A DNA stretch of 64,000 nucleotides from Pelagophyceae sp. CCMP2097. Its lineage: Eukaryota > Sar > Pelagophyceae. The notes under the pieces were generated by a model. It did no database searches and had not been told where the DNA came from. It saw only the letters and a program-made list of their open reading frames with translations. Shown piece by piece: positions 1-44,343 of the stretch. The stretch's first letter is position 1. Each line of letters begins with the position of its first letter. The stretch is from positions 58,803 to 122,802 of the forward strand of contig MU657195.1 in NCBI GenBank assembly GCA_026770575.1, read 5' to 3'. The position numbers and the translations under genes were made by a program.

Positions 1-1503
1 TTCGGGAAGAATTTATTATAATCTGCATTATTGAGATTTTGAAAAAACAGAATCGAAGAGCCCGCTCAAAGTGCCCTTGATCGGGTCCCAGGCCATCGAG
101 GCCAGAAATCGGGCCCGCACAAGGGCAGAGTGCCTGTAGAGGGGCCGTCAAAAGGGACCGCCGAGGCCCGCCATTCGATTCGAGTGCGCCATTCGAGTCG
201 AGTGCCCGTCCAGGGACCTTTGAACGGCTCCGGCTCTGGCCAGAGACCTGCATCAGGCCCGCCTCGAGTCGAATGTCCCTTCTCGGGCCCGATATCCGCC
301 TCGGGCTCTTCGGGCCCTCGAGGGAGCGTCGAGGCCCGCAAAAAAGGTCTGTCGCAGGTCGAAGCCGTAGAGAGGGCCAACAAAGGGGAGAGGGACAGTC
401 AAAAAGTGACCCTCAAAAAGTGACCCTCTCAAGTGACCCTCTCAAGTCAGCCTCGGGCCGACTGTCTGTCTCGGGGCCGTTTGGCGTCTCGGGCCCGTCG
501 GCCCGTCGGCGCCTCGGGACCGTCTCCGTATCCGGGTCCGGCCCAGGTCTGTATCCGGGTCTCCTCGGGTCGACTGTTTTTGTTCGAGGCGCCAGTCTTT
601 GGCCCGCATCGAGTCCGTCGCAGGGAAAGTCCGTCGGCGGGGCTGTATCGGGGCCGCCAAAGGCCCGTCGAGGTCCGTTAGATGGTCTTTGGGTCCGTTC
701 AGGTCCGTTAGATGGTCTTTGGGTCCGTTCTCGGGACGGTCGATGCTTCGCCTTCAACTCGGGGCTTGTCGAGGGACTTTGAAGTTCTTCACACCGAGAC
801 GCGCGTCCAGAGATACCGTCGCAGGGAGAATGCCCGTCAAAAGGCCCCACCGAGACCGCCAGAGGGGCCGCCGAAAGGTGCCCGGAGAGGGGCCGTTTGA
901 CCCTCCAAGGGTCTGTCTCGGGTCGAGTCTCGGTCTCGGTTCCGTCAAAGAGCCGTTCTCCGTCGAAGAGCCGTTCTCCGTCGAAGAGCCGTTTTCAGGC
1001 CCCGCCGCAGGTCTGCATCAAGTCCGCCTCGGGTCCCTTGCCAGCCCGACTCGCGCCGTCGCGGGTCCAGTGTCCGTCGATTTGACCGTTTGAGGTCCTT
1101 TCCCGAGTCGAGCGTCCCTCTCCGGGACCCTCTCCGCCTTTTGGTCCCAAGACCCCGGGTCGGTTCTGGGCCCAACTCGCCTCCGTCTCCACTGCCGCAG
1201 GCATCGGAGAGAGCCCGCGTCTCCGGAGGGGCCGAGTCTCTGCCGAGTTTGCCCCTTGAAGACCGGGTATCCGCCGTCCAAGGCCGAACCCTCTTTGGGC
1301 GCCTCTGGCCCTGAAACCGACCGGGCCCTTCAAGCAAGTCTGGCAAACCCGCACAAAGCAACCCGACCCGAAGACGGCCCATCCTGGGCCCTCGAGGGGC
1401 CGGTCCGTTGTCGCGTCTTGCTCGGGTCGGCGCCTGCTCGTCTTTCTTCGGCCAGGGCGCATGCCGCAAACGGGTTTTCCGAAGAGCGGCGCTGGAGACG
1501 CAC
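1..1503 (-). repeat. Open-ended PEPC intron made of degenerate repeats
   Basis: The intron after the exon ending at 1504 (donor GTGCGTCTCC) runs off the left edge. No PEPC exon could be found in it. It holds short repeated words on the plus strand, e.g. two copies of a 28-base unit at about 676-733, AAGTGACCCTCTC at about 405-447 and three copies of a CGTTCTCCGTCGAAGAGC-like unit at about 950-992. Confidence 0.7.
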
Positions 1504-4500
1504 TTGGCCGGCCGCGAGCCCAAGTTGAGCGCGGCGAGCTCGCGCTCGGGCGTCGCGGCGCGGAAAAAGGGGACGAAGTCTGGCTCGCCGCGGACGATTG
1601 CGCGGTATTTGGCGCACGACGTCGCCGAAAGCGCCGCCATCGTCGCGCGCCATTTGGGAAGCACCTACAAGAACGATCCCAGAGCCGCTTCCGAGTGACT
1701 CTTGGGGCGCCTTTGCACGATGCTCTCGAGACGGCGCCATCTCGACAGGCCCTCTCGAGGGAACGTCTCTCTCGGCCGTCTCAAGGGACCCTCGAGAACT
1801 GGCCCTCTCAAGGGACCGTCTCGAGAGGCCGTCTCGAGAGGCGCCTTAGAGAAGAGCCGTTTCAAAGGCCGTTTAAGGCCGTTTCAAAAGGCTGTTTCAA
1901 CGGCCCTTGGAGACGGCGCCGTTTCAAAAGTCGTGCAAGGCCCTCGGAGACGGCGGCGCCGTTCAAAAGGCCGTCAATGAGGGTCATTTCAAAGGGCCGT
2001 CTCTACGGCGCCGGCTCGAGGGGCCGTCAAAAAGGGCCATTTCCAAGGCCCCTTTGACAACGTCCCTGTGACAACGTCGCCTTGACCGGGACACCATGCC
2101 AAGGTTGAGGCATTCCCGCGACAAAGTCCCCGCGACGTTTCCTGAAACAAGTTCCCCTCGAAAGGACCACGATGCGAGTCCGTGCCACGGGGACCGTGGT
2201 CAGGTGCGACAAGGTCGCTCTGACGACGTCGCAGCGACAAGCTTCCTGGAACACCATCCCGTGACGAGTTTCCCGCGACGACGTCGGCCCTGGTCCCTGC
2301 GACGAGATCCCTGTGGCTCGCCCGTGACGGGGGCCCGATGGCAAAGGTCCCCGGGACGACTTTCCAGAGAGGTCCCTGCGACGACTTTCCCAAGATTGAC
2401 GTCCCGTTCAGGTCCCCGTGAGACGGCCCCTGTGGCAAGCACCCTGTGAGAGTAGCCCCAAGGAAGACATGGGCTCTATCAGACGACGCTGCAAGGTCGC
2501 ATCGCCGAAATCCCGTAGGCAAGTTTCCCCTGGACGAGTTTCCCGTGCCAACGTCCCTCTCCAAAGACCCGGGGGCTCCAACTCGCCGAGTTTCATAAAT
2601 CCGACGCAACGAGTTTCAGACCACTCCCTGCGCAGACGCTGAAACGGGCGTCGGGCGCGGCCTGGAAAGAGTCGCGCAGCACCGCCGCCGTGAAGATGTC
2701 CAGCGTGCGCGTCGCCACGTCGGGCGCGCCTAGACCGCGCCTCGGACGCCGACGTCGGACAAAGAGGGAAACCCGAAAACGTTTCCCGGAAGTTCAAAGC
2801 ATTCGCAGGTGAGGACGACGGTCCCTGCGACCACGGTCCGAGTGACAACGTCCCCGCGGCAACGTCGCCGTGACACGGTTTCGATGCCAATTTTCAACGT
2901 TCCAAGAACCCGTGTTTCACTGTTCCAAGACCCCGCGACGAGGTTCCCGCGACGAGGTTCCTGCGACTCCGTCCCTGTGGAAAGGCCCCTATAGCAAGGT
3001 CCCCGTGACTCCGTCCCCATGGCAAGGCCCTCGTAACAAGAACTCTGTGACAAGGTCTTGGTGGCAACTGGACAAGGTCTTGGTGGCAAGGTCCCTGAGA
3101 CACGGTCCATAATACAAGAACCGATTGAAAAGGTCCCTTTGCCAATGTCCCCGTGGCAAGATCCCTTTGACAAGGTTCCCGTGGCAGACGTCGCGTTCAG
3201 GCCCCTCGACCGAGGTCCGGCCCCTCAACCAAGGTCCCCGCGATACGGTGCCCTTGGCAAAGCCGTTGAGCGGGCCCTGTGGCGAGGTCCTTTCTCAAAG
3301 GCTGTCAGATGACATTTTCGCGACGAGGTCGTTCTGACAGGGCCCCGTGACGTGGCCCCGATCCCAGTTGCCCAGGACGACATTTTCCGTGACGAGATCA
3401 CTTTGACGAAGTCACTTTGGCGAGGTCCCTGTCTTGCAAAGGGCCGTCTAGAACAAGGCCGTCTCTAGCAAGGGCCCCCGTCTATCACAAGGTCCTCGTC
3501 GACCACGGCCCCCGTGGCTAGAACCCGGTACGCAGTCCATTCAAGCCCGGGACTGTCCATTCAAAACGTTTCCCAAATCTCGAATCCAGAGTCCTCGAGG
3601 GTTTTTGCGGTCCGATTATCAAACGTACCGAAGTTGAAGCCGATGCACTCGCCCTGCTCCGTGATGCGGAAGCGGCCGTCAATCGTCGCAGGCCTGCGGG
3701 TTTGCGAAATGCGCAGATTTGTTTGTGCTCGTCGAGTTTTCGGCATGACATTTTCGGCATGTCCCCTTGCGCCCGCTCCCAAGAACTCACGGGTGCGCGA
3801 GGATGGCGCGGTACGTTTCCGGGTTGCCGCCGCGGCCGACGGTGCCGCCCTTGCCGTGGAAGAAGGTGACCTCGACGTTGAACCTAGAGTCCGTTGATTT
3901 TTTTTAAAATATATGGACTTTATTTTTGGGGAATATCGTGATGCACGACTCATCGCACAGCCCCCCGACGGCGGGCCCGCGGCGTTGAGACCACGACGCC
4001 CGGAAATTCTCCGTCGGAACCTCTCGACAGCCAGAAACGCAAACAGAAACGCCTCGTGACCGAGTCCCCTGACTACGGTCCTGTGACTACGGTCCCGTGG
4101 CAACGTTCCGCGAGGTCCCGTGCGTGACGAGTGAATGGCAAGGTCCTTCTGACAAGGTCCCGAGACCGAGTCCCGTGGCAAGGTCGCGCGTGGCAAGGTC
4201 GCGCGTGGCAAGGTCCTTCTGACAAAGGTCCTTCTGACAAAGGTCCCCGTGACAAAATCCCTTCGGAGGAGATATTGCGACACGGTCCAACGTGAGACGA
4301 GGTCCCTGCGACGTCTATGAACCGTGACGCGGTCCCTGCGACGCACTCCCAGCGACGAGATCCCTGCGTCAAGGTCCTCGGTGTTCTCTCGACACAGTCC
4401 CGACATGGTCCCCGTGGCGAGGTGCCCGTGGCGAGGCCCCCGTGGCGAGGTGCCCGTGTCTCCGTGACAAGGCCCGTGTCACGAGGCCCCCGTGACGAGC

Positions 4501-7500
4501 CCCCCGTGACAAGGTCCCTGTGGCAAGGTCCCTGTGACAAGGACCCGTGACAAGTTCAACGTGAGAAAGTCCCTGTGCCAAACGTCTTGTTGGCGAGGTC
4601 CTCGTGACAGGTTTCCTGTGACCAGGACCCCGTGACAAGGTTCCAGCGAGGAGGTCCCTGTGACGAGGTCCCTGTGACAAAGACGACGTTCCCGTGAGCC
4701 CTTGTGAGAGGTTCCTTTGAACGAGTCCCCTTGTGGCAAGGCCCTTGCGACACTGTCCCCGGGACGGCGTCCCCGTGGCAAGGACCCCGTGACCAGGCCC
4801 CCTGTGACGAGGCCCTTGCGACAAGGTCCCGTGCGGCAAGGTCCCGTGAGACGGCCCTTGTGAGACGGCCCCCGAATTCAAACGGTCCCAGAATTCAAAC
4901 GGTCCCAGAATTCAAACGGTCCCAGAATTCAAACGGTCCCAGAGTCTCAGAGTCCCAGTCATCTCGATTCCCGTGGCGGCACCGTGCGTAGGCCCCTTTT
5001 GGTCCCGGGCAATGCGCCCCGTGATGAGGCCCCCAAAACAGCAAAGGAAGAGGCAAGGACAGCTCCCCCCGCCGCGGCCGAAAGACACGGGTCCAAACTG
5101 CTTCGCCACGGCCAGCATCTTCTCCTGCTGCTCGTACTGCGCCCACGACGCGGCGAGGCGGCCGGCGTCTTTTGCGCTGTCGGAGTAGCCCACCTAGTAT
5201 AAGATGCCCCTCGCCGACTCTCCCTCGACTCTCCAAAGCTCTGCAAAGCTCTCCAAGCCTCCCACAAGGCTCCACGTACCATTATCTCCTGGACGTGGCC
5301 GACGCGGTCGAGGTACCCCGGCGCGGAGAACCTATGCATCGTCATGCATCGTATTCGAGAGTCCCGCCGGAGCGCCGGCTTTCGCCTCCACGGGGCACTC
5401 GGTCCGTTCGCTTCGGTCCGTTCGCTTCGGTCCCTTCGCTTCGGTCCTTCGCAGGGCCCGTCTCCGGCCGTTGCCCGCGGGATCCGGAGCAGCGCGTCGT
5501 CGCCGCCTCGGGGGCCGTTGACAAGACCGCACAAAGGGCAAAACGGGCCCCGAAGAAGGGGCCGCTTTCGAAGCCTCGAGGACTGTCCCTCTCCGGGGCC
5601 GCACGGGGGCCGTCGACGGACCGCCGCGGGGCAGAGGAGCCCTCTCAAAGCGGCGTCGAGGGCCGTCTGGGGGCCTTTTCGAGGACCGCAAAGGGGCGTC
5701 CATCGGGCCCTCAAAAGGCGGCCCTCTGATGACCCTCTCCAGAGGGACCCTCGAAAGGGCCCGTCCCGGGTCCACAAAGGACCGTCTGGCGGAAGAGAGG
5801 GCAATCCAAGGTGTCCGTCTCCGGGGCCTCTCTCGGACCGCCGGGGCCAGTCTCGGACCGCCAAGAGCCCCTTTTGGACCGTGGTCGGGGCCGTAGACCG
5901 TCTACGCCCCCGTCGGCCCGCCAGTCAATTGCGCCACCTTTGTCAAAAACGGCGGTCGAATACGGCGGTTTCGGTCCACTGCTCAACTTTGGCGCGTCGC
6001 CCGCCGCCTTGCGCCGGGGGCTCTGCGGTGCGCAAAACGAGGGCCGCGGTCCGTCCCAAGGTGCGCCTTTCCCAGAGAGTGCGCCTTTCCCAAGAGTTTC
6101 GGGAACTCGGCCCAAACTCTGCGCCGCAGCCTTGCAGTTCGGCGAGCGCGGCGGGGGCGTTGTTCAAGTCGTCGAGCGTCTCGAAAAGCGGCACGATGCG
6201 CATCCGCGGCGCGCCCACCTCCGCAAGCAAGAGTTCGACGGCTAAAACGTCGGCGGCCGCCGTGGCCTGCGAGATGACGTAGGCCCCGACGGCGCCCGCG
6301 GGCGCGCGGGCCAAGTAGAGCGCCGTCTCGAGGACGTCGCGGTCGACGCCGTCGGTGGTTTCAGCAATGAGGGATTCGTACTCGCCGCGGCGCAGTAAAG
6401 GCCGGTGCTGCACCAGCTCGGCGGACAACCAGGCCAGCTTGGCGGTCGAGGACATGTCGAGGTAGCCTTTTTGGCCGGCTTTGCATCGGAGGGCGTCGAT
6501 GGCGCGCGCGTGCTTGTCCGACTCCTGGCGCACGTCCAGAGGGGCGAGCTGGAGACCGAAGCTAAATGGATGATTCAATCGGATGACACGGCCTTCAATA
6601 TCCAGAGTGGTGCAACGCCATGGTGCATCTCGAATTCGGCTGGATCCATGAAAGCAGCATTCAAGAATGGATTGCACGAGATTCAATCGAATCCAATATG
6701 GATTCATGAACGCAAAATGAAAAAATGAACAAGAACGCGCATCTTCCAAACTCGAACGTGCCCCGTGAAAAGGCCCCCGTGGCAAGACGATGGCAAGACG
6801 CCGTTTCTGAGGCCGTCCGACTGTGAAAACCACCATGTCAAGAGAGGGACCGTCCACAAAAACGTCTCCGGCCCGCCTTTGGGGCCGTCGCACGTCCCCG
6901 GGGCCGTTGAAAGGGGCCGTTGAAAGGGGCCGTTGAAAGGTGCCGTTGAAAGGGGCCGTTCTGTCGGGTCTCCGGGGCCGTTTGCGGGACGAGCCTCGTC
7001 TCGGGCCCGCCAGAGGGTGAAAGGGTCCCAATCGCGTCGTCCGGAGATGTAGACTGCCCGGAGTTTCAGCGTCGAGAAAGACCGTATCGGGCCGAATGGC
7101 CGTCTGCGGGACCGTCGCAGGCCCGTCGGAGGGCCCACCAGAGGGTCCGTTCTTTTCCGGAAACGCCCGTCTCGAGTCTCCTGGGCCACCGGGTCCGCCT
7201 ATTCGAGGACCGCCGTTTTGGAGGCGAACCGAAACGGAACCAGGCAACGTGGGACCGGCATTTGGACTACGACCTTGTCGACCGGGTTTTCCAAAACCCC
7301 CGACGCCCAAGCGCACGTCTGCACTCGTCGAATGGTATCCAGCAGCCTGCCCCCCGCCAGCGCGGCGTGGCCCGTCTCGCAGAGCGAGGCGTGCATGGCC
7401 GTTAAGAGTTCCAACAGTTCGTCTTTGTCGAAGATGCCGTCCGTTGAGGTGCGCGCGCCCATCAACGCTTCCGGAGACGCCGCCCACCTATTCGCGCCGA

Positions 7501-10500
7501 CTCTCAACGGACGGCTTTTAAAGACGCAACCTCCGGGCGAATTGCCGGCGGTGAAGCACTTGCATCGCGCCGCACCAAAGGCCTCTCAAAGGCCGGCTTG
7601 CTCACGCGGCGGTGAGTCGCAGGCGCGCGACGACCATGTCGATCAAGCGCTTGTACGGCTCCTGGGCGCGTTTCGGCGAGTTGGCGACGCCGGCGCGGTG
7701 GACAATGTCCGAATTGGCAGTGGTCACGGACAAATCCAGGCGCAAGGCGTCCAGCTCTGCGATGAAAAGCTCGGCGCCCTTGAGGCGCTGCGCTGCCACG
7801 ACTTGCGCGGTCACCTGATTTGCGAAACATCGCAGGCACCTCCCTTTTCCAAGACGCGCAGAGGGCCGCTCTCTGAGAAGCCGCAGGGCACCCGCCATAC
7901 GGTGCATCCCATGCCGGCTTGATTGCACTTTGGCGATTGCCCTTTTTGGATGGCGCGAAAAGGGCCTTCCCGAGTTTTGCAATTCCAGTTTTGCAATTCC
8001 AGTTTTGCAATTCCAGTTTCGCAAATCCAGGAGCGCGAGGGACCATGCAGGGCCCTTTCCGAGACGCAAATGGGCACGTGTGCCGAGGGCATTTTGGAGG
8101 TCTTGCAAGGGACCGTGCTTCAATGCCTCGCAAGGGACCGTGCTGCAACGCCTCACAAGGGACTGCTGCAATGCCTCGCAAGGGACCGTGCTGCAACGCC
8201 TCGCAAGGGACCGTGCTGCAACGCCTCACAAGGGACTGTGCTGCAAAGGGCCGAACTTTGGAGGCGGTCAAGGGGTCGGAGAGAGGAGGCCCTTTGCGCC
8301 TTGAAAGGAACTCGACGGGACCTTGGTCTTGGCGAGGCGCCTTCGGACCCGCCTTGCCGAGGAAGCATTGCCTCGAGGCCCACGAGGTGCGCCATTGAGA
8401 GGACACAAAGCCCTTCAAAAGGGGCTTTTGCCAGAAACCGCGTCAGAGGCCGTGCTCCGTGCCCTTTTCGACGAGTCGGGGCTGGTTCTCGGAGCTGCGT
8501 CAGGGGCCTCGCAAGGGGCCTCCATCGAAACAACGGCTCGAACGGGGCAAGGCCAGTTCCGGGGAAAGCGGTTCTTCTGTGCAGCGGTCTTGCAGGGATT
8601 CGGCAGGTTGCTCAGGGTCCGATTCGTCAGGGCCCGCCCTTTGGGGCCTCGCAGGAGGCGTCTTGGTGCCTGCACGGGCCCTTTTCGAGGGGCCCTTTTC
8701 GAGGGGCCCTTTTCGAGGGCCTTGCGGGGCAACCCTTTGGCTTCTCTCGGGCAGCGCATTGGGCGAGAGGCGCGACGGACTTTGACGGCCGTCAAACTGA
8801 AAGGCCGCAGAGTCAAAGGCCACAGAGAGTCAAAGGCCACAGAGTCAAAGAAAGGCCGCAGAGTCAAAGGCCTCAGAGAGTCAAAGGCCACAGAGTCAAA
8901 GAAAGGCCGCAGAGTCAAAGGCCACAGAGAGTCAAAGGCCACAGAGTCAAAGGCCACAGAGTCAAAGGCCGCAGAGAGGGACCCGAACCAAAGGTGTTTT
9001 TGCCACCGCCCTTTTCGAGGAGCCTTGTAGGGCCCTGCAAGGGCCCTTTGCAAGGAACCGTGCGTGGCAGCTTGATAGGGCTCGTCAAAGAGGCCCCACG
9101 AGCGACCGCGCACTTGACCCTCAAAGAGGCCCGTCCGTTTGGCTTTTGGCCCGTCCGTTTGGCTTTTCGAGGACTTCGGGAAGATGGTCCCGCCCTCTCG
9201 CAGCCGCGAGCCCATCTATCGTACGGGATGCCGTGAGCTCATATTGGAGAATTGTCGCGGCTCTGAGGCCTCTCGAAGCCTGTGGTCAACAAAAGGTCCT
9301 TAAGGCAAGGTCCCGGAACGCTGTGGCAATGCCCCTGTGACACCGTTGCGACAACGTCCCAGTGACAAGGTCCTTGTGCCAAGGTCCCTTTGACAAGGTC
9401 CATGTGGCAAGGTCTCTTTTGACAAGAACGCTGTGACAAGAACGCTGAGATAAGGTCCCCGTGAAAAGGTCCCTGAGACAAGATGCCCGTGAAAAGGTCC
9501 CTGTGGCCGAAGGTCCTTGTGGCAAGGACCCTGCGACAAAGGACCCTGTGGCAAGTCCATTTGACAAGAAGGCAGTGACAAGAAGGGCAATTACCCCAAA
9601 ATAAAGAGACCCGTGGGATTGGGGAGGGCCCGTCGAGCCCAAGACTCGAGAAGCCCGTGGTCTCTCGTGACCGAGGGTCTTCCCCGCTGGGGAAGGGGCG
9701 CATGGCCTCGAGGGGCGCGTGGCCTCGAGGGGCGCGTGGTAGAAGCGGGACCCCCAAAACTCATTGTATGGCGTTGTAGGACGCGCCATCACTGCGGGAC
9801 CCACGGGTCTCTCCAGGGACCGTCGGTCTCGAGGGGCTCGTGGGAGAGAAGCGGGGAAGCCGCCGTCTCGAGGGACGCGCGGTAGAAGCACCAAGATCCG
9901 CGGGACCCCATGGTACCGAGCCCCCAGGTCCATCTCAAAGGGGGGTCATCTCAAGGCACATTTAAAAATCCAAAGATGACAAATCCAAAGGATCAAAAAG
10001 GTGAACGCACCTGCGCCGTGACGTTTGGGTTCCCGTCTCGATCGCCGCCCATCCACGTCGCAAAGGCCACGGGCACCGCATCCAGGGGCAAAGCGCCGCC
10101 GTGCTGCGCCAGCGTGGCGTCCAACCTGGCGGGTTGCGGTGTTTGCGCGTCTTTTTGGGGTCATTTGGCCCAACGCGTTCCCGGAGACGAAACGCACCTC
10201 CGCAGGAATTGCGGCACCGCCGCCCACAGCGACGTCTCAATCACGGCCAAAGCGCCGCGCGCCTCCTTTTGCGGAGTCGGCTTGGACCGGCGCAGCTCGT
10301 CGCTGCCCCACAGAGCGCGGACCGTCGCAGCCAGGTCGCGTTCCAGCCTAGCGCAGTGCCTTGAGCGCAATTTCAACCGGCGGTTGTTTTCGACCAAGTT
10401 GGACGCAATTTCGACGATGCGATGATCAAGGGCCGCCTCGAGTCCCGGCCGTCTCCGGGCCCGTCAAAGGGCCGCCCGAGGTCGCCGTTGCAGCGCCGTC

Positions 10501-13500
10501 TCCAGGCCCGGGTTTTTCCGTTGGGCCCGTCTCGAGGCCCGTTTGGCCGTCTCGAGGCCCGTTTGGCCGTCAAAGGGCCGAGGCGAAAGTCCTTCAACTT
10601 CCCGAAACGGACCGGCGCAGTCGCCAAGCAGCGCCATCTTCGGTCCGGGCGACTGTTCAAGGTCCGTCCAAGGTCCGTTTCAGCGACGTTCAAGGTCCGT
10701 TCAAGGTCCGTCTCCGCGGCGTTCAAGGCCCATCGAGGCCTGCGGCATTCGGATCCGTCTACGGGTCCGTCCTTGGGGCGTCTTTCCGCAGTCTTCTCGG
10801 CCCGTTTCGAGGGACCGTCAAAGGGCCGTTTCGAGGGCCCGTCTCAGCGCCTTCTCGGCCCGTTTCGAGGGTTCCCGCCGCGACCCGTCGAAAGGTTCGT
10901 CGAAGGTCCGTCTTTGGGGCCGTTTGTATCAGCGCCGTCCTCAGGGCCCGTCCCCGGGGCCCGTCCTTTGTCAGTTTCAGCCCCGTCCAAGGTCAGGGCG
11001 CCTCCCGGGTCCTCCCCGGGTCCGTATCTGCCCCGTCTCGAAATCACAGAGGGTCAGCCTGTCAAAGGCCCGTCCAAGGCGCCATAGAAAATTCAAAAGG
11101 CATCCAAGCCCGGGTCCACCGGACCTGGGTCTGTCAAAGGGCCGCGTCGAGCGGCACCTTTGGACCAGGACGACCGCCCTCGCCTTTGGACCAGGACGAG
11201 AGTCGGTCAGAAGCGCGTCTCGGCCAGGACACTTTGCCAAAGGTCCAAACGCCGGGGGCCGAGTTCCCTCGAGTGCGAACGCTTAGGGTCCCACCGAGGT
11301 CAGCCCGTCAAAGGCGCCGTTGAGGGCCGTCCAACGTCGTCTCGGCGGACGTTTGGAAAGGCGCCGTTGAGGGGCCGTCCAACTTGCGTCCCTCTCGAGG
11401 CCTGGCCCTTGTCGAGTGATCTCGCTCGAGCCCGTCAAGATCCGTATCAGCGCCGCCGAGACCCGCCTCGGCGCGACGAGGCCGGGGTCCGTCGGGTCCG
11501 TCGGCGGGTTTTCCAAGTTGCCTTCCCCTCCGTCTCCGCGCCGTCTCCGCTCGGCGCGTCTCCGGCCCGGATCCAAACCGGATCCAGAGGCGCGGGCCTT
11601 TTGGAGGTTTACGGCGGCAAAGAAGCGCCTCCGGGCCGCCGCTCGCACCGCCGTTGTCGCCTTGTGCGGAGTTTCGCCGACGCTGCCACTCGCTCTTCCT
11701 TCTCAAAACCTCTGCCGCCGCCATCGGCGAGTTCGTGGAGCAGGTCCGTCACGCGGCGGTGCTTCACCAGCAGCGTGCGGCGGTGCACTTCTGTCGGGTG
11801 CGCCGTCAAAACGATCTCCACCTAGCGGCAAGGTCCACGAAAATCACGCTCGGGCGGCGCAAAGGTTCTTGAATCGAGAACGGTTTCGACTTTCGGGAAA
11901 AGGGTCTTTCAAAACGCCACTCTCCGCGGCGCAAGCCCCTCGACGCTCTCCGCGGCGGCGATGCGCAGCCACCGCGCAGCCACGCGCAAAGTTGAAGACG
12001 GAGACCAACGCTTCGAGTCCGTCGGAGGCAGTCCGAGGCCGTCTGGAAGACCAATGCCGTTGGGAAAGGCCGTCGAGGAGGCCCGCCGAGACGGCCGTGG
12101 CAAGAAGGCTGTCTCGAGGGCCGTCTCGCGGGCCGTCTCGAGGGCCGTCTCGCGGGCCGTCTCGAGGGCCGTCTCGCGGGCCGTCTCGAAGATCCAGAGG
12201 GCCGTCGCAAGGGGGCCGTCTCGAGGATCGAAGCCGTCTTAAGGGCCGTCGCAAGGCCGCTTTGAGGCCGTCGAGAGGCCTTGAAGAGGGCCGTCTCGAG
12301 CATCGTCTTCAGAGCCGTCTCAAGGACCGTCTCAAGGGACCGTATCAAGGGACCGTCTCAAGGGACGGGTCAAGGACCGTCTTCGGGACAGTTGCACCGT
12401 CTTTTTGAGGCCGCCGAGAGGCGGCCATCAAGGGACCGTCTTCTTGACAGCCTCTCGAAGACCGTCTCCTCTCGAAGACCGTCTCGATGCTGTCAAGAGG
12501 GCCGTCAAGAGGGCCGTCAAGGGACCGTCTCGAGGACCGTCTCGAAACCGCCTCGAGGGCCGTCTTGAGGGTCGTCTTCAAAGCCGTCTTGAGGACCGTC
12601 TTAACAGCCGTCTGAAGAGCCGTCTGAACGGCCGTCTGGAGACCGTCTCGAGGGCCGCACGAGGACCGTCTCGATGCCGTCTCGAGGATCGTCTCGAGGG
12701 CCGCCTCGAGGGCCGTCTTCAAAGCCATCTGAAGAGCCGTCTCAAGGGCCGTTTGGATATCGTCTCAAGGTCGTCTCGCGGACCGTCTCGAGAGCCGTCT
12801 CTGCCTCGAGGATCGTCTTAAGAGAAGAGCCGTTTGAAGGGCCGTCTCGAGGGCCGTCTTCGGAACAGTCTCAAGGTCGTTTGGAGGCCGTCGAAAGAGC
12901 CGCCAAGGGACTGTCTCGAAGACCGTCTTCGGGACCGTCTCGGGACCGTCAAGAGGGCCGTCAAGAGACCAGCTAGAGGACCGTCTCGAAGCCGTCTCGA
13001 GGGCCATCTCGAAAACCGTCTTAAAAGCCGTCGGAAGAGCCGCCTGAACGGCCGTCTGGAGACCGTCTCAAGGTCGTCTCGGTGCCGTCGCGAGGGCCGT
13101 CAGAAGAGCCGCATCGAGGACCGTCGCGAGGGCCGTCTTAAAAGCCGTCTGCAAAGCCTTTTGAAGGGCCGTCTCAAGGTCGTCTCTAAGACCGTCTAGA
13201 GGACTGTCTAGAGGACTGTCTCGATGCCGTCGCGGGGGCTGTCTCGAAGACCAACTCGATGCCGTCGTGAGGACCGTCTTGAGGACTGTCTCGAGGGCCG
13301 TCTCGACGACCGATTTTAAAGCCGTCTGAAGAGCCGTCTGAAGAGCCGTCGCGAGGACCGTCACGAGGACCGTCTCGAGGTCGTTTTGAGACCGTCTCGA
13401 GGGCCGTCACGAGGACCGTCTCGATACCGTCAAGAGGGCTTTCTCGAAGCCGTCTCCAGGTCCTTCCTGGCCGTCTAAAAAGCCGTCTAAAAAGCCGTCT

Positions 13501-15259
13501 GAAGAGCCGTCTGAAGGACCGTTTCTAGGTCGTCTCGAGGTCGCCTCGAGGATCATGTCGAGGAGCGACTCGAGGGGCGTCTCGAGGACCGTCTCGAGGG
13601 CCGTCTCGAGGACCGTCTCGAGGGTCGTCTCGAGGACCGTCTTAAAAGCCGTCTGAAGAGCCGTCTGAAGGACCGTCTCGAGGACCGTCTTAAAAGCCGT
13701 CTAAAGGTCGCATTGAGGCCGTCTCAAGACCGTCTCGAGGAACGTCTTCAGGGTCGTCTGAAAGACTGTCGAGAGGACCGTCTCGAAGCCGTCTCGAGGG
13801 CCGTCCGTCTCGAGGCCCTCTTGAGGACCGTCTTAAAAGCCGTCTGAAGAGCTGTCTTCAGGGCTGTCTTGAGGACCGTCTCGAGGTCGCCTCGAGGCCG
13901 TTCGAGACCGCCAAGAGGGCCTTCAAGAGGGCCGTCAAGAGACAGTCTAGATGACCATCTCGAGGACCGTCTCGAACCCGTCTCGAGGGCCGTCTTAAAA
14001 AGCCGTCTGAAGAGCTGTCTGAAGAGTCGTCTGAGACCTGTTTCAAGGCCGTCTCGAGGACTGTTCCGAGGACTGTTTCGAAGACCGTCTCGAAGACCGT
14101 CTCTCAGCCCGTCTCCAGCGACGTCTGAAGGACCGTCTTCAGGCTCGGGCCATCCTTTGAACGCGGGCGGGCCGCGGCATTCAACCACCGTCTCGAATCG
14201 GCGTCTCAAGTTTTGGAGCGTCGAAAAGACACACCGCAGCGTCGAAAAGACACCGCGACGAACCCGCTGCTTTGATATCTTCTCCACCACTTCGCCAATC
14301 GACTTGCCTTCGCCCAGCAAAAGCGCCACCGTGCCCGGGCACGAGTCGACCTGCGCGGGAGCGTCGGCGGGGCAAGAAGGGGGTTCTCGAAAGAGCAGTT
14401 CGTGGCACCCTTCCAAAAACGCCTCTTCAAACGGACCTTCAACGGAAACAAAGCGGACCCTTCGACGCGCTTCGTCTCGAGGCGGCGGCGGCGCTGTTCC
14501 GACTCTGCGGCGTTTGAGAGAGCGAGAAAGTGCGCAAACGCTCGCGACACGTCCCGCAGCTGCGCGGCCTCCAGAGAGGCCACCGACGCCACCATCTTCG
14601 AGAAAAGATCAGCCGCCAGGACCTCGTCGCCGTCGCGCCGCGCGGAGCGCCAGTGCGTGGCACCCTTGCGCAGAGACTCAATCGCCTTTAAAGTGCTTGC
14701 GCCGTCGACGTCACCCGCCGCCGCGTCTCCAAGTAACTTCCCCAATTTCTTCATCTCCCGGGCGTAGGGCGCCGCGGAGGCGTCGAGCTCCGATAAAGCG
14801 TGGAAGGTGTTGTGGCGGACACCTGACTTTGAAGACCTAGATGGGTTTATTACTATAGGCGTTGACTAGAGAGACAGATTGTTACTATAGAGACGGGTTG
14901 TTACTGTAGAGGCGGGTGATTCCAAGAGGGCGTCGACGAGAGGCCCCAGAGGGCCCGCCCGATGCGCTCCCCCCGCCTCCCGCCCGTCTCACGCGCCTCC
15001 CGCGCGTCTCGCGCCCCCGCGCGCTCAACAGGCCCCGCCGCCCCGCCGCGGCCGCCCCTCCGCCTTCTTGGACGCACAGGCCGTTTGGGGGCGTTGTGGA
15101 GAAGTTTGCGTGCTGGTCGCCTGCACCGGCGGCTCTGGCAAACGCGGAGAGCGAGGGCTGCAGGGCGACCGTCGTCGACCGGAAGCGCGCCGCGACCAAA
15201 GCCGCACGGCGCGCGTCCCGCGCCCGCGCGCGTCTCAGCGGCGCACGGCAAGCCTGCAT
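1504..15259 (-). CDS. PPC: Phosphoenolpyruvate carboxylase, multi-exon, 3' end outside window
   Basis: Carboxylates PEP to oxaloacetate (anaplerosis or carbon concentration). Exons, in order of transcription: 15259-15078, 14836-14467, 14422-14264, 11821-11682, 10347-10198, 10125-10011, 7814-7606, 7487-7317, 6561-6118, 5331-5280, 5193-5099, 3883-3791, 3693-3629, 2729-2638, 1664-1504. All junction phases agree. Seen motifs: [12 protein letters not shown] (exon 4), [11 protein letters not shown] (exon 5), [12 protein letters not shown] (exon 6), LDVRQES and [12 protein letters not shown] (exon 9), [11 protein letters not shown] (exon 11), [15 protein letters not shown] (exon 12), RITEQGE (exon 13), [11 protein letters not shown] and GSRPAK (exon 15). 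About 832 residues are present; families run 880-1000, so roughly 250 C-terminal residues lie past the left edge. The first exon is Arg/Ala/Ser-rich with few acids and resembles a mitochondrial presequence (a start at 15307 is also possible). The 44-base intron 14466-14423 is the least certain junction; several donors are GTGCG-type and two are GTTTGG. Confidence 0.93.
1665..2637 (-). repeat. PEPC intron filled with degenerate repeats
   Basis: 973-base intron between two phase-0 PEPC exons. The 1740-2060 part carries words such as GTCTCGAGAGGCC and AAAAGGGCC; the 2090-2470 part carries GACAAGGTCCC / GTGACGAGTTTCCC words. No conserved coding is visible. Confidence 0.75.
2730..3628 (-). repeat. 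PEPC intron filled with GGTCCC repeats
   Basis: 899-base intron. From about 2815 to 3530 the plus strand repeats GTGACAAGGTCCC and GTGGCAAGGTCCC in degenerate, roughly 15-base steps. Confidence 0.75.
3884..5098 (-). repeat. PEPC intron filled with GGTCCC repeats
   Basis: 1215-base intron between the exon encoding the SDSAKDAG region and the glycine-loop exon. It holds GTGGCAAGGTCCTTCTGAC-type units (4130-4260), GTGACGAGGCCCC units (4390-4870) and four near-exact copies of AATTCAAACGGTCCCAG (about 4874-4941). Confidence 0.78.
5332..6117 (-). repeat. PEPC intron with GGTCC/GGGCC repeats
   Basis: 786-base intron. GTTCGCTTCGGTCC is repeated about four times at 5402-5452, and GACCGCCGGGGCC-like words at 5820-5890. 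Confidence 0.72.
6562..7316 (-). repeat. PEPC intron with GGGGCCGTTGAAA array
   Basis: 755-base intron. Four tandem copies of a 13-mer GGGGCCGTTGAAA stand at about 6900-6955. The 6570-6730 part is AT-richer and not repetitive. Confidence 0.74.
7815..10010 (-). repeat. 2.2 kb PEPC intron with four different repeat arrays
   Basis: The intron joins GNPNVTAQ to the VTAQVVAAQ exon. It contains TTTTGCAATTCCAG copies (about 7975-8025), a 25-base array with the word CTCGCAAGGGACCGTGCTGC (about 8105-8250), AGAGTCAAAGGCCAC units (about 8810-8975) and GACAAGGTCCCTGTGGCAAG words (about 9290-9560). CTTTTCGAGGGGCC is tripled near 8690-8720. Confidence 0.78.
10348..11681 (-). repeat. PEPC intron with TTCAAGGTCCGT repeats
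   Basis: 1334-base intron; TTCAAGGTCCGT recurs near 10650-10725 and GTTTCGAGGGCCCGTC-like words at 10800-10870. No coding is seen on the sense strand. Confidence 0.74.
11822..14263 (-). repeat. 2.4 kb PEPC intron: degenerate GTCTCGAGGGCC array
   Basis: The intron runs from donor GTTCGTCGC (14263) to acceptor GCTAG (11822). From about 12080 to 14150 it is a nearly continuous degenerate 12-base array on the plus strand (CGTCTCGAGGGC, CGTCTCGAGGAC, CGTCTGAAGAGC). This gives long open frames on both strands rich in Arg/Ser/Gly or Thr/Ala/Leu, which I do not treat as genes. Confidence 0.85.
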
Positions 15260-23225: not shown

Positions 23226-23359
23226 TTATCTTCGGCGATTTCTGTTGAGCAAATTCGACAGTGACAACAACTTTTGGTGCGGACGTTCACGACGTCGAGA
23301 GTCTCGCGACGCCCTGCAGGTCGAAGCGCAGCAGGAGAGACCCTCGCAGGACGGCCACG

Positions 23360-24391
23360 ATGGACGCGCCGACGGCCGCTTCGAAGCCCTGTTGCGTCTG
23401 CGCCGCGCCAAACGGCAAGCACTGCGCCAAGTGCAAGTCGCGCCACTACTGCTCCAAAAAGTGCCAGGTCGCCGACTGGCAACGAGGGCACAAGGCGCAA
23501 TGCAGGCAGCTGGCTGCCGAATTCCAGGACCGCCTCCTCGACGAGCTCATGCCGCCGAAGAAGCCAAAAGAGGTGCCGCCCATCGTCGAGGTCGTCTTGT
23601 TGGCGGACGGTTCCAAGGCGCGCTTATCGGCTGTTCGGGCGGCCAAGGCAGAGGCCGCGCCGAACGACGACGCGCCGTTCTGGCGCGGCACGTGCGCCAT
23701 CTGCCTGGACGCGCTTCCATTCGAAAATTCGAGAAAAACATTCTACGAGTGCTGCTGCGAGAGCATTTGCACGGCATGCTTCGAGAAGTGCCGGCAGCAC
23801 GACGAGCGCTGTCCGCTCTGCCGAGCGCCGCCCCCCACGTCGGACGCCGAGTCGCTGTGCATGCTGCAGAAGCACGTGGATAAGGGCAACGCCGAGGCGC
23901 AGATCATGCTCGGGCACGAATATTTTAATGGCATGGAAGTCCAGCAGAATTTTACGCGGGCATTCCAGTTATACGAGCTCGCTGCGGCGCAAGGCCGCGC
24001 AGAAGCTCAGCATGTTCTGGGGTTATGTTACGCTCAAGGGCGAGGCGTCGAGGTCGACTACAAGACCGCCGCGCTGTGGTACCGGCGCGCAGCCGAGCAA
24101 GGCTTCCCTCCCGCCCAGTACAGTTTCGGCCATATGTTTTACCACGGCGAGGGCGTGGCGCAGTCGTATAACGAAGCCGTGAAGTGGTTCCACCTCGCCG
24201 CGGCGCAGGGCCACGCAGACGCGCTCTTCAACCTCGGCGCGTGTCACGCAAACGGCCACGGCGTACCGCAGGACTACCACGAGGCGCTGCGTCTCTTCAA
24301 GCGCGCGGCGGCCAAGGGGCACGCCGGCGCGGCGGCGCAGGTCGAACGGCTCGGCCCGAGGCTCGCGGCGCACTCGGGCCGACCGGCGTGA
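23360..24391 (+). CDS. MYND-RING-Sel1 repeat protein (intact copy)
   Basis: 343 residues, uninterrupted. Order: a MYND zinc finger at about 10-50 (CCVCAAPNGKHCAKCKSRHY then YCSKKCQVADWQRGHKAQC); a RING-like module at about 112-155 (CAICLD, a CCCESICTACF knuckle, CPLCRAP); then five Sel1-like repeats to the end (A.Y..GHGVPQDYHEAL and related units). Such proteins are scaffold or ubiquitin-ligase adaptors; the substrate is unknown. The start was chosen at ATGGACGCG, which is conserved in the copy at 32428, although the frame stays open upstream to 23261. The copies at 32428, 38004 and 55184 are broken, so this is the only apparently functional member here. Confidence 0.88.
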   Translation: MDAPTAASKPCCVCAAPNGKHCAKCKSRHYCSKKCQVADWQRGHKAQCRQLAAEFQDRLLDELMPPKKPKEVPPIVEVVLLADGSKARLSAVRAAKAEAAPNDDAPFWRGTCAICLDALPFENSRKTFYECCCESICTACFEKCRQHDERCPLCRAPPPTSDAESLCMLQKHVDKGNAEAQIMLGHEYFNGMEVQQNFTRAFQLYELAAAQGRAEAQHVLGLCYAQGRGVEVDYKTAALWYRRAAEQGFPPAQYSFGHMFYHGEGVAQSYNEAVKWFHLAAAQGHADALFNLGACHANGHGVPQDYHEALRLFKRAAAKGHAGAAAQVERLGPRLAAHSGRPA

Positions 24392-33464: not shown

Positions 33465-33581
33465 CCGTGCCAGCGCGTCCTCCCCTACCTTCCTTTTAAA
33501 AGGTTCTTTACATGTAACAAAGGCAAGTCGTCAAAGAAGCTCTTTAAGAAATCACTGCCAGAGTGTCAAAATTGCCCTTTA

Positions 33582-39108: not shown

Positions 39109-42100
39109 TCAAGACGTGGCCTTGCAGCTCCGCGTCGAAGACTTCGAGCCTGGCGACGCGTATATGCGCGGCGTGGAAAGGAACGACTGCACGTGGCACG
39201 CAATTACTGACCTTTCAACGAGATCTTCTCGAGGGCCGGAAACGTCGAGGCCGTGGCTCCGGAGCGCCATCTTCAAATCGGGAACGGCAAATGCGCGAAA
39301 CATGGAGACCCGCGGCGCCGCGCCGGACGCCGTCGAATCCGCCGAACCGTCCAAGTCGCCCGCTCGAGGCGGGCCGTCTTCGTCCACCAGAGTTGTGCGG
39401 CGGTCCAAAACGTCCGACGAAGCGAGGCCTTCCAATGCGGGCGGCGCGTGGCCCGCGAGCCTGGCATCCGATGTACGCCTGGGGTGTGGTGGGACGTCGG
39501 ACGCACCGTTCCAAAAGGCACCGTTCTAAAAGTTCGGATTTTCTCCCTGAAACTTTCAATCCCGCGGCGCGGAGGCGGGCCTGCAGTTCCGCCACCGTCA
39601 GCAACGCCAGGCCGGTGGACGACACCTTGAGCGCCGCCACCGCCGGCGGGCCCGCGGCCGTCGCCGCCGTCGGTCCGTCGGCCGGCTCCGTCGGGCCGGC
39701 GATTGCGGCGTTTGCGCCTCGCGCCGCCGGCGCTGCGAGGCTTTGGAGGACGCGGCGGCCGTCCATGGCTTGACCGGCGAGTTCGTCGGCGCGGTCGTTG
39801 AAGACGTCTCCGGAGTGGCCTTTAACATGGACAAAAGTGACACCGCCACCTGCACGCGACCATGCCAAAGGTTCCGCGCGGCGGGGTTGCATCCTGAAAG
39901 GGTTGCCATCGAGCCCTCGAATTGGGATGCCATTCGACCCATGTTGGATGGTCGAGTCCCAGAAAGGCCGTACGGGACCCATGCGCTTCCCTGCCCTGGA
40001 ACAAGGCCTTGCGAGCGACTGTGCAAGGGGCCGTGCAAGGCCCGTGCAACGAGTCAAGACTCGTCAAGGAGCCGTGCGAGGGTCCGTGCGAGGGGCCTCG
40101 CAGGGAGTGGGTTCGGTCTCCTCTGGAGACGCCTCTTTCGGACCCACGCCTCGACCAAGACGAAACTTGCTGTCCAGGGGCATCCCCACGACTCTAACAA
40201 ATGGCCTCGCAGGGGGCCGTACAGGAGGGGTTCCCCGCTCGAGTGAGGCGAGGGGCCGTCCAGAAAAGGTCTTCGGACGGACCGCGCAGTTCGGGCCCCG
40301 TGCAAGAGGGGGTTAGGCTTAGGCTTAGGCTTAGGGTTAGGCCCCTTTTCGAGGGAACGAGGGCCTCACAGGGCATCCAAAGGCCTTGCAAGGGCCCGTA
40401 CGAGGGGAGCGCATGAGAGGCCCGCCCTCCGACCGCACGAGGGCCGTTAGAGGCCAGGCGCCGTCACCCAAGCAGAGGGCCCTTGCAGATTTGGGCCGTC
40501 GCCCGTTTAGAGGCCCTTGCGAAGGATGAGTCGAGGCCCTTTGCAAGGAGCCTTGAAAGGAATCGTGCAGAGGGCAAGATCCTTGAAAGAGGCCTTGCAA
40601 AGGGCCCGTCCGTTTGGCTTTCCAAGGGCCCGGGAAAGGTCTTCTTGATCGGGCCTCGCACCCATGAGCCTATACGGCATCCCCGGCGCGAGCCTCTATG
40701 GGGTGCGTCTCGGAATCCCACGACCCAGTCGGCAGCTCAGGCAACACGGGCACTCTGTGCAAAAATTAAAGGCCCAGGGTAGATGGGTTCGAAGAAGCGT
40801 CAACAACGGCCGTAGACGTCCCTCTGCCGTTTTCTGCCGTTTCTCGGTCCGAGTCGGCCACCGTCCAGAGGGGCCGTGTAGAGGGGCCTTGGAAGAGGGA
40901 CCGTGCAGAGGGGCAGTCTCAAGATACCCCCTCCGTCCAGAGGCTGCGGCGGGTCCGACGCGGCCGCTGAGAAGTCCGCGAAAGAGGCCGCTGAGCGGCC
41001 CGGAGAAAGGGGGCATCCCAGAGGGGCCGCCTCCAAGGGTCTTGCAGAGGGACCGTTTCGAGGGACGGAGACCGTCGTCTCGAGGGGCCGCCGAAAAGGG
41101 ACCGTGCACAAGGGCCGTCTCGAGGACCCTTTCGAGGAGCCGTCGAGTGTTTGTCTCGATGGGCCGTCCAGAGGGACTGTCTCGAGTCACCCTCTGTCGA
41201 GAGACCGCCTCCAGAAACCGTCCAAAGGACCGGCCCTGATCCCTGTGCCGTCGCTCCGGGTCGGCCACCACACCGAGGGGCCGTCCAGAGGGGCCGTGTA
41301 GAGGTACCACCCAGAGGGGTTGTCCAGAGGGACCTTCGAGAGGGATCGTCGAGAGGACCGTCCAGAGAGACCGCCGAGAGGACCGTCCAGAGAGACCGTC
41401 TAGAGGGTCTTTCTAGAGGGGTCCAGAGGGGCCGTCTAGAAGGACCTTCCAGAGGGGCCATCCAGAAGAACCGTCCAGAGGGACCCTTTAAATAGACTGT
41501 CCATAGGGACCGTCCAGAGGGGCCATGTAGAGAGAGACCAAAGGGGCCATCCAGAGGGCCCATTCAAAGGGCCCGTCCAGAGACACCGTCCAGATACACA
41601 GTCCAGAGGGACCGTCCAGAGGGACTGTCTAGAGGGGTTCTGAGGAGCCGCCCAGAGGGGCCGCCCAGAGGGCTGTTCAAAGGGCCTGTCCAGAGGGGCC
41701 GTCCAGAGGAGCCATCTCAATGGACCGTCCAGAGGGACCGTCAAGAGGGGCCGTTTTTTGGGGCGGCACCGCGCGTCCTTTGGGAGCACCGCTGTGACGG
41801 TTCGGATTTTCCGGTTGCAAAGATCCGTGCGTGGGGGCTTGATAGGGCACGTAAAAGAGGCCTTGCAAGTGGCCGCGAAAGAGGCCTTGCAGGGGGCCGT
41901 CCGGAGATTGCAAGGAACCGTGGGTGCAGGCTTGCAAGGGCCCCGCAAAGAGGCCTCGCAAGTGATCGCGCAGAGGCCTTGACCACCCGTTTGGCTTTCC
42001 AAGGACCCGGGCAATGGTGGTTTCGACCGGGCCTCGCACCCAGGAGCCCAGACGACATCAAATATGAGCCCATCGTATGCATCCCACAATGTGGTACCTC

Positions 42101-44343
42101 GGTGGTTCCGGTTGCCGCGCTCACGCATGCTGCGACAAGAACCCCGTGAGAAGGTTCTCTTAGGCAAAGGTCCCTGCGACGAGGCCCCCGCGACAAGGTC
42201 CCTGCGTCAAGAACCCCGTGGCAAGTGTCCTGTGACAAGTTGCCCGTGACAAGAACGCTGTGACAAAAACGCTGTGACAAGATCCCCGTGACGAGGTCCC
42301 CGTGAAACGTCCCCTTTGACGAAATCCCTTTGGCGAGGCCCCCTTTGACACGCAACCGAGAACCCCCTTGGCAAGGTCCCCGTGGCAAGGTCCCATCGGC
42401 GACTTCCTACGACAAGTTTCCGTGCTTCCGGACGCGGCCCAGACTTCGCCGCTTGACTTCCGCCGAGAGCAGCCGCCGGCACGTTCGGGCCAAAGCGACG
42501 TTCTTGGCCGCCTTGTAAACACCCTGCGTGATAAGCGCCTAGTGGGGTGCGGAGGCTACGGAATACTGCAGATTTAATATCAACATCATAATATTTCAAT
42601 ATCAATAATATTTATATAGTAGTAGTAATAATATCATTATTATTAATATTATAATACTTAAACGTTTATTATTATATTATTATTCATTATATTAGATCTA
42701 TAATTATAATTATATAATAATTGTATAATAATATATTGTCATTGTTATTATTATATTTATTATTTAATTTATATAATTATTAATTAATTTGTAATTGTAA
42801 TTGTAATTGTAATTGTAAATACTAATATACTTGTATGATATAAATATGACAATAATATGGTTTTCCGGATTTATGCGCGGCAAATACCGCGTACTTGCTG
42901 TCGTAGTGGATCACGGCGGCGCCGTGCGACCTACCGCCAAAGTCAAGCGTCGAGCGGCAGATGCCAGACATGGATCCTATTCCGAGGACCAGGGCCGCCC
43001 GTGTAGGACCGAAGCATGTATGGACTTCGCAGAGGGCGCCGTGTCCATCGCCGTGTCCATCGAGCCCTTCGAGGCCCGAATCGGGGGCCCGTCTCCGAGA
43101 GAAGAGCCGCAGAGCGTCCGTCTCGAGGCCCGTCTCAAGTCCGACTCCGGTCGAGGCCCGTCTCGGGTCCGATTCGGTCGAGCGGCCGTAGAGGGACCGT
43201 TCTCAGGCCGTGGGTCCGCCTCGGGTCTGTCTCGAATCCGTCTCGGGTCCGTCTCGGGCCTCTGGACCGTCCGTAGAAGCCCTTTCTCGGGTTCCGCCGC
43301 CTCGTCCAACGCCGCCGCAAACGCTTCGCGTTCGAGCCAGATCAGCGCCTCGGCGATGGCGGTCAACTCGGCCGTGTTGTTCGAGCAGACCTAGAATGCC
43401 CCTCTCCGCGTTGCGAGTCTGATTCTCGAGTCTGATTCTCGAGACATTCCACCCACCTCTGCGCCTCTAAAGTGCGCCGCCGTCGCGTCGATGAGCACGG
43501 GCCCGCGCAGCTCGGCGATGGAGCGGTTCGACTGCGTCACGACGACCTACTCGAAGCTGAAGAGGCAACGAAATCCGAAGAGGCGCCGGTGCACCACGCC
43601 TCTGTGCAAGTCTTCGCATCGCCGCTCGTTAAAGAACTGTTCGCATCGCCGCACTCCCGCCGCCTCTGCCGCCTCTGCCTTCTTTCGCCGGCGCCGGCTA
43701 AGGACGCCCCAGCCCGCGGGCTGCGCGCTCAGGTGGACCTATTTGGCGGCGCCGTCGCTCAGGCGCCGTCGCTCGGGTGGACCTCTTGGGCCGCTCCACA
43801 GCCGTCATCGGCGCGCGTCTTCGGCGCCCGCGCGTCGCCCTGGGGAAGTCCCTGGGACCGCCGGTGCCGGTGCACGTGTAGCCTCGGGGATTTCCGCCTC
43901 TGCCGTCGGCCGGGAGAGTGGACGCCGTCGGCGGGGAGCGCTCCCCGACGCCGCCGCGTACGTTTCGGTTGCCCAAACATCCACCATCTGTATACAGCCG
44001 CAGCAACGCATCCGCCGCGGGCCTACGCACGATTCAGCCGCGAGGGTGGCCACGCCCCGAGGATTTGGGCTTCTCGGTCCCGAGTGGGCTTCTCCGAGGG
44101 CGCCGCGGCCGAAGGGGTCTTGGAGGGCGCCGCGGCGGCGGTACGGCGCCGTCCCGGAGGCCACTTGCACACGCAGGCGCACCGCGTCGAAAACGGCCTC
44201 GCGGCGCGCCGCGGCGAGGGCGCGAGGGCGGTGGCGGCGAGCGGCGCGGCGTACGGCCCGGCCGCGCCGCGCCGAAACGCGAGGCCGCGCGCGTGGCCGG
44301 CGAGGGCCGGAGCGCCGCGCAGCGCGGTCGCGCGCGCCGCCAT
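39109..44343 (-). CDS. Organelle-type RNase H1 with two SAP motifs
   Basis: Cleaves the RNA strand of RNA:DNA hybrids. Exons: 44343-44183, 44022-43962, 43738-43706, 43546-43457, 43390-43323, 42930-42888, 42523-42445, 39849-39507, 39460-39109; phases agree and give 409 residues. Residues 1-54 are Ala/Arg/Pro-rich without acids (RGLAFRRGAAGPYAAPLAAT, ending PFSTR), a mitochondrial-type leader. The RNase H fold carries all four catalytic acids: D in LYTDGGCLGN, E in NNTAELTAIAEAL, D in HYDSKYA, D in FNDRADELA, plus VKGHSGD. Two SAP-like DNA-binding motifs follow: LTVAELQARLRAAGLKVSGR at about 260-292 and VPDLKMALRSHGLDVSG at about 350-377. The 44183 donor and the 3' end are least certain: a donor at 39212 could lead to a further exon. 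The 2.6 kb intron (39850-42444) is a repeat array. Confidence 0.88.
39850..42444 (-). repeat. 2.6 kb RNase H intron of degenerate repeats
   Basis: 40000-40660 carries TGCGAGGGGCC / CTTGCAAGGGCCC words; 40850-41760 is an array of GTCCAGAGGGACC and GTCCAGAGGGGCC (roughly 15-base steps); 41820-42000 repeats GAGGCCTTGCA; 42140-42410 repeats GTGACAAGGTCCC words like those in PEPC introns. A short TTAGGC run lies at about 40312-40340. Confidence 0.85.
42524..42887 (-). repeat. RNase H intron with AT-only island
   Basis: 364-base intron between the DSKYA exon and the GVYKAAKN exon. About 42575-42860 is almost pure A/T (TAATTATTATT words and a GTAATTGTAATTGTAATTG run) in otherwise GC-rich surroundings. 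Confidence 0.8.

Follow-up and report, generated by a model that had tools for sequence, protein, structure and literature searches.

Long Introns of Unrelated Genes in a Pelagophyte Alga Carry One Minisatellite Family That Nearly Always Faces the Way of the Gene

In the pelagophyte alga CCMP2097, the repeats in long introns of several unrelated genes belong to one family, and they nearly always face the way of the gene. The family was recognized in a phosphoenolpyruvate carboxylase (PEPC) gene within a stretch of 64,000 nucleotides (positions 58803-122802 of contig C32, here called the window) of an assembly of 66.18 Mb and 638 contigs; the genome is described as 62% GC and 85.8 Mbp (PMC9756366). 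The motif ACGG(N1-2)CCT, defined in the sense strand of PEPC and later counted in other genes with the strand taken from their exons, was found 219 times in the sense and 9 times in the antisense direction (19 intron segments, nine genes). Because the direction of the motif is fixed relative to transcription, this result suggests that the RNA strand of the repeat matters in some way. The reading that we favor, and hold to be somewhat probable, is that a single minisatellite family with the sense unit CTCGAGACGGNCC expanded within introns that were ordinary and short, in genes unrelated to one another, its direction being constrained at the RNA strand. As part of this best reading, array growth is what makes the long introns long.

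RESULTS

The Long Stretches of PEPC Are Spliced Introns

The PEPC gene lies on the minus strand, where PF00311 was matched in ten pieces (C32 57726 to 73559), and a hand-built model of 19 exons gave one open reading frame. The predicted protein is 61% identical to the PEPC of the related brown-tide alga Aureococcus anophagefferens. The closest known protein is P0001, from an MMETSP transcriptome; alignment with both the model and the DNA showed it to be identical over the exons. Intron boundaries were taken from the hand-built model and then corrected with P0001, which shifted four donors and one acceptor and added a first coding exon starting at position 15259. The corrected gene has nine long introns (755-2442 nt) and ten short ones (62-287 nt). 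Of these 19, five lie wholly or partly beyond the window; 16 have GT-AG and 3 have GC-AG ends.

P0001 lacks all nine long stretches, and 18 of the 19 introns are missing from it, the exception being the 100-nt intron 18, into which it reads. Because P0001 matches the exons identically and skips all nine, we conclude that the long stretches are spliced introns, as the first-pass annotation of this DNA had proposed, and the possibility that they are not introns is excluded. The identical transcript protein also rules out an assembly or annotation artefact as their source. Relatives of the PEPC protein on short contigs hinted at intron-poor genes elsewhere; they were set aside, as they may be transcript assemblies, and nothing was built on them.

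Three further features of the gene were observed. The C terminus of P0001 continues into intron 18, so that the final PEPC residues are missing, which reflects either intron retention or an unspliced transcript. GC donors occur in three of the nine long introns (introns 3, 8, and 13, with GCGAGT, GCAAGG, and GCCCGT) and in none of the ten short ones. The 3' end is TAG in eight of nine long introns compared with four of ten short ones.

Tandem Arrays Occupy the Middles of the Long Introns

We scored repetitiveness by taking, for each position, the best 14-nt match 8 to 120 nt away, and compared the result with first-order Markov resamplings (shuffles). All nine long PEPC introns exceeded the shuffles, with z scores of 5.9-42.7 (8.2-48.4 with the first model), compared with 2.1 for the PEPC coding sequence (first model). 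Nine of the ten short introns scored between -1.5 and 3.2, the exception being the 241-nt intron 0 (z 6.4). An array was thus present in every PEPC intron longer than 600 nt, versus one weak case among the ten shorter ones. The earlier claim that the long introns are repetitive was borne out, and the claim that the short ones are free of repeats holds for all except intron 0.

A minisatellite is a tandem array with a unit of about 6-100 bp. Tandem Repeats Finder (TRF) reported arrays with units of 12-14 nt and longer, in up to about 160 copies lying head to tail, as in a minisatellite. These arrays covered 83% of intron 2 and 8-48% of each of the other eight long introns, so that the description of the introns as almost entirely repeats fits intron 2 and overstates the others. 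The first-pass annotation was right that the repeat words center on GGTCC/GGGCC: GGNCC was enriched in 15 of 15 intron segments (562 observed, 191 expected), whereas three of four control stretches showed no enrichment (observed/expected 42/45, 49/53, and 71/68; the fourth gave 55/37).

The repeats lie inside the introns. In every one of the nine long PEPC introns, the final 80 nt showed no repetitiveness beyond that of shuffles (z -1.8 to 1.6), and the same was true of the first 80 nt in six of the nine (introns 2, 5, and 8 gave z 6.2, 3.3, and 3.2), whereas the middles gave z 6.5-40.2. Intron 2 also contains a higher-order duplication of 117 nt. The internal position of the arrays and this duplication support the earlier suggestion of repeat-driven expansion.

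Elsewhere in the window, 18 of 20 other stretches scored z 1.0-9.4, and the remaining two, at 41.3-43.3 kb, scored z 16-18. The strong repeat profile of the PEPC introns is not confined to PEPC, as similar arrays occur at 40.0-43.3 kb in introns of another gene (an RNase H/SAP gene, described below). Weaker repeat patches were found at 38.6-39.1 kb, where the motif is absent, and at 60.3-60.9 kb, with five motifs and no assigned gene. Despite these patches, motif arrays within the window occur mainly in introns of the PEPC and RNase H genes rather than being spread equally over intergenic DNA; the genome-wide sample is small and masked, with 4 of 20 sampled stretches containing no readable base and 7 more being partly N-masked.

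One Repeat Unit Is Common to Unrelated Genes

Wrap-around alignment of the 13-nt sense unit CTCGAGACGGNCC covered most (82-95%) of a single long intron segment from each of five genes: PEPC intron 2 (95%), a gene from the SNF2 family on contig C15 (93%), the first gamma-COP segment (92%), a PIKfyve-like segment (90%), and a myosin intron (82%). Coverage was 61% in the RNase H segment, 10-50% in five other non-PEPC segments, and 0-43% in the other eight long PEPC introns, which carry related or other words. Spacer variants of this 12-14 nt family include GTCACAGGGACCTT and CTTGAACGGACC.

In the 66-Mb assembly, the CTCGAGACGGNCC dimer gave 3708 matches with at most 3 mismatches, compared with 1 for a reversed-pattern control, and the GACAAGGTCCC dimer gave 3449 matches, compared with 3. 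Different introns and genes thus have words in common, and these words are found thousands of times across the genome, which contradicts the earlier claim that each intron has its own word. Independent local slippage within each intron can accordingly hardly be the explanation, even though subfamilies differ among introns and intron 5 is a mosaic, because the same unit recurs in the same direction in several unrelated genes.

We found no match to one unit in phage records, where the BLAST low-complexity filter may mask repeats, or to one dimer in viral contigs, and no Rfam family matched in the window at the gathering score.

Array Direction Follows the Gene

The motif was in the majority in the sense direction in 18 of the 19 segments, the remaining segment being 1:1, and outside PEPC all eight genes agreed on its direction. 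The genes counted lie on both strands, which indicates that array direction follows the gene and not the contig: on the minus strand PEPC, gamma-COP (L038), myosin (L042), RNase H/SAP, and SNF2 on C126 (L050), and on the plus strand plastid-type Cpn60 (L041), PIKfyve-like (L040), and SNF2 on C79 and C15 (L051, L052). The names PIKfyve-like, plastid-type, and gamma-COP are our own readings; Pfam gives Cpn60_TCP1 and Adaptin_N domains. An unlocated exon lies within one gamma-COP segment, the PIKfyve-like segment lacks a 3'-side exon, and the C15 segment is closed at its 3' end only. The three SNF2 places were chosen after a nearby dimer and its strand were already known, and so they were not blind tests.

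Several regions were kept out of the 219:9 count: a 2.3-kb SNF2 gap that is mostly coding sequence and short introns (L053; 1 sense, 3 antisense); seven gaps besides the myosin intron, of which L043 and L048 have one sense motif each, L044 has one antisense motif, and four have none; a tRNA synthetase stretch without motif (L039); the rest of L038 (2:0), L040, and L041; and loci without an assigned gene (L016, L022, L037, L009/L010, and 60.3-60.9 kb of the window).

Two further measures agreed. In alignments over the 19 segments, CTCGAGACGGNCC covered 10523 nt, versus 2035 nt for the unit in the opposite direction. Shared 9-mers, a comparison that does not use the motif, favored the same direction both between genes (2286 same versus 1154 opposite; 52 of 67 pairs same, 13 opposite, 2 ties) and within PEPC (1348 versus 730; 29 of 36 pairs same, 6 opposite, 1 tie), whereas a coding-sequence control showed almost no bias (278 versus 253). 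Among the matches listed, concordant dimers also lay, by coordinates alone, near two further SNF2 genes (C64 and C128), at distances of 3.0 and 4.4 kb.

At 40.0-43.3 kb of the window, an array lies upstream of a plus-strand coding sequence, and its sense direction led us to expect a minus-strand gene there. To the left of the array is a minus-strand stretch with a SAP domain and a match to the end of RNase H (21 bits, below the cut-off of 25.8). To the right, pieces of the same strand were recognized by eye as RNase H: LYTDGG (near 44.0 kb), SNNTAELTAIAEALIWL (43.3 kb), and HYDSKYAVFAAHKSGK (about 42.9 kb); a Pfam search with one of these pieces gave no match.

Several observations count against a strict directional rule. 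The motif is 1:1 in PEPC intron 12 and 3:2 in intron 13, and the shared 9-mers include the pairs noted above in which the opposite orientation prevails (6 of 36 within PEPC, 13 of 67 between genes). The rest of the PIKfyve-like locus, outside the counted segments, has 11 sense and 6 antisense motifs, and Cpn60 has none in sense and three in antisense in its 3' flank, with 1:0 upstream. In the RNase H segment 1954 nt fit the sense unit, and 964 nt fit the opposite unit too. Arrays of both directions occur within 10 kb (L016) and within 3 kb (L037) at loci without an assigned gene, and at L016 an array of plus-gene direction lies directly beside a coding-like segment of the minus strand. The count covers nine genes in a partly masked assembly, with evidence of splicing at the RNA level for PEPC.

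Splice-Site Asymmetry Is Mostly a Matter of Composition

Donor-like sites numbered 21 in the sense and 42 in the antisense strand, and acceptor-like sites 26 and 43. Shuffled introns gave nearly equal asymmetry (donors 26 versus 40, acceptors 50 versus 71), and so the asymmetry is mostly due to composition. The real donor of intron 1 (AAG/GTCCGTTT) is similar to the antisense word, and such words can therefore act as donors. Sense-strand totals were 792 GT and 1202 AC. Simple avoidance of GT was rejected, because donor counts were near those of shuffles and GT and AC were about equal in L050-L052 (43/45, 49/56, and 44/46) despite a strong direction bias. When sense-strand copies of ACGGNCC are read at N, T outnumbers A (84 versus 34), so that GT is not avoided at this position. 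Cryptic splice sites as the cause of the direction thus receive weak to mild support from these counts, which tells against this part of the favored reading.

Positions of the PEPC and RNase H/SAP Features

The features are listed in Table 1.

Table 1. PEPC gene, its introns in the window, and the RNase H/SAP intron (window positions; motif counts are sense:antisense)
Feature	Position	Strand	Length	Motif	Description
PEPC gene, in-window part	1..15259	-			Start codon at 15259; runs on to -1079 (C32 57723); from PF00311, P0001, and the exon model
Intron 0	14837..15077	-	241 nt		Short; small tandem repeat of another word at 14865-14917
Intron 1	14351..14436	-	86 nt		Short, not repetitive; real donor resembles antisense repeat word
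Intron 2	11822..14263	-	2442 nt	49:0	Filled by CTCGAGACGGNCC array
Intron 3	10348..11693	-	1346 nt	16:0 (first model, 1301 nt)	GC donor; CTTGAACGGACC-like array
Intron 4	10126-10197	-			Short, not repetitive
Intron 5	7815..10010	-	2196 nt	8:2	Mosaic of several arrays, including sense GTCACAGGGACCTT
Intron 6	7488..7605	-	118 nt		Short, not repetitive
Intron 7	6562..7316	-	755 nt	7:0	Array AACGGCCCCTTTC
Intron 8	5332..6135	-	804 nt	4:0	GC donor; array GCGAACGGACCGAA
Intron 9	5194-5279	-			Short, not repetitive
Intron 10	3884..5098	-	1215 nt	5:2	Arrays GTCACAGGGACCTT and TCTGGGACCGTTTGAAT
Intron 11	3694-3790	-			Short, not repetitive
Intron 12	2730..3628	-	899 nt	1:1	Array GTCACAGGGACCTT
Intron 13	1665..2649	-	985 nt	3:2	GC donor; mosaic array
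Intron 14	1..1503	-	1515 nt	5:0	Array; last 12 nt beyond window edge
RNase H/SAP intron	39850..42860 (approximate)	-	about 3.0 kb	26:0 (~40.1-43.3 kb)	Filled by the same directional array as PEPC

The RNase H intron, otherwise GC-rich, contains AT-rich short tandem repeats at 42580-42818. The window also holds three Sel1-repeat stretches (23249-24391, 32548-33582, and 35989-36930), one of them with a MYND finger recognized by Pfam, and a Kelch-repeat stretch (48646-49377). A plus-strand coding stretch at 44642-45646 has the top coding score of the window and no Pfam match, and it ends in what we read as a potassium-channel-tetramerization-like motif. A stretch of ~55 nt was seen by eye in the myosin intron, toward its 3' side as the gene is read, and in the opposite direction in a gap of a kinesin gene (L046); it is perhaps a short mobile element.

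DISCUSSION

The repeat family, its position inside introns, and its direction have to be explained together. We favor growth of one family inside ordinary short introns, with a constraint on direction at the RNA strand. Arrays would grow by replication slippage and unequal exchange, copies of existing arrays could seed new introns, and wrongly oriented arrays may be lost since their RNA would be harmful, most simply through extra cryptic splice sites. A wider proposal is that the family forms a strand-specific intronic code across the genome, in which the long introns would owe their length to arrays of the RNA motif ACGGNCCT, repeated every 12-14 nt, and the machinery of splicing or of transcription would read or tolerate these arrays one way only, so that their direction predicts that of the gene even in unannotated DNA; we put this forward tentatively, with the chances clearly against it.

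It is also possible, though rather unlikely, that ACGGNCCT, repeated every 12-14 nt in the sense RNA, functions as a signal, such that a hypothetical splicing or packaging protein coats the long introns and the arrays are kept for it. The fixed direction relative to transcription would follow, and the columns of the unit are unevenly conserved: among about 700-830 aligned units, T is kept at 0.89 and ACGG at 0.78-0.89, compared with 0.70-0.76 for the other fixed columns. However, these units were found by their similarity to the consensus, and the unevenness could stem from mutation rates. If the N that varies in the 12-nt form is disregarded, conservation in the units of intron 2 is lowest at the CpG of CTCGAG (0.60-0.65). 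The short PEPC introns, moreover, are spliced without the motif.

Descent from introner-like elements that splice one way only, from which the inner repeats would inherit their direction, accounts for the fixed direction and for the same units at many places, and introners are described in Aureococcus (PMC9860276) and introner-sized introns in Pelagomonas (PMC9481584). The PEPC introns show no introner marks. The longest common stretch expected of a target-site duplication averaged 4.58, compared with 4.46 +- 0.36 when permuted (19 introns), and the ends of the nine long introns shared 28 (5') and 11 (3') 7-mers, compared with 24 and 20 in shuffles. An introner origin was rejected on this evidence and is kept as an unlikely rival because decay could have erased the marks.

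Transcription itself might drive growth in one direction, through R-loops or through hairpin slippage on the displaced strand. Array direction does follow transcription, and the unit has two palindromes (CTCGAG and GGNCC) that could form hairpins, but the sense strands show no consistent excess of G over C. Palindromes were only 1.13 (4-mers) and 1.23 (6-mers) times as frequent as expected, both values falling within the range of four controls (1.02-1.31 for palindromes of 6), so that we rejected palindromes as the driver and regard this explanation as quite improbable. A structural role for the RNA, which the first-pass annotation had offered, fared no better: most 200-nt windows fold 0 to -2 z from shuffles, with both strands alike, and the few strongest reach -3.6 and -3.8 in the sense and -4.6 and -4.8 in the antisense strand.

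What drives intron growth, and what holds it in check, has long been asked, and intron length here appears to be set by one directional repeat family. The direction bias offers a handle with which mutation, selection on RNA, and RNA-mediated spread could be separated, in a unicellular alga with many further array loci for comparison. It has already been of use at the RNase H locus, where array direction indicated the strand of the gene and its other exons were subsequently located.

The fixed direction of the arrays relative to transcription is the new element here; our literature search, which did not extend to subscription papers, found no paper on directional intronic minisatellites in pelagophytes. 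Three known systems come close. Introners of Aureococcus, a related alga, and of other algae are likewise a repeated family inside introns of many genes, but they are recognized by similar intron ends and often by target duplications, neither of which PEPC has, the body of its introns being a tandem array (PMC9860276). The gigantic introns of Drosophila kl-3 and kl-5 also owe their length to satellite DNA, and expression of these genes persists; those introns are of megabase size and occur in few genes, whereas the introns of the alga are 0.75-3 kb long, lie in several ordinary genes, and share a directional unit (PMC6508621). The CeRep25B minisatellite of Caenorhabditis elegans is mostly intronic (75% in introns), with a partly palindromic unit and a possible link to splicing (PMC4039745). 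It differs in having a 24-nt unit in clusters, mainly on chromosome III and less on chromosome II, and the main text of that report does not contain the words strand or orientation, the property by which the family described here is set apart.

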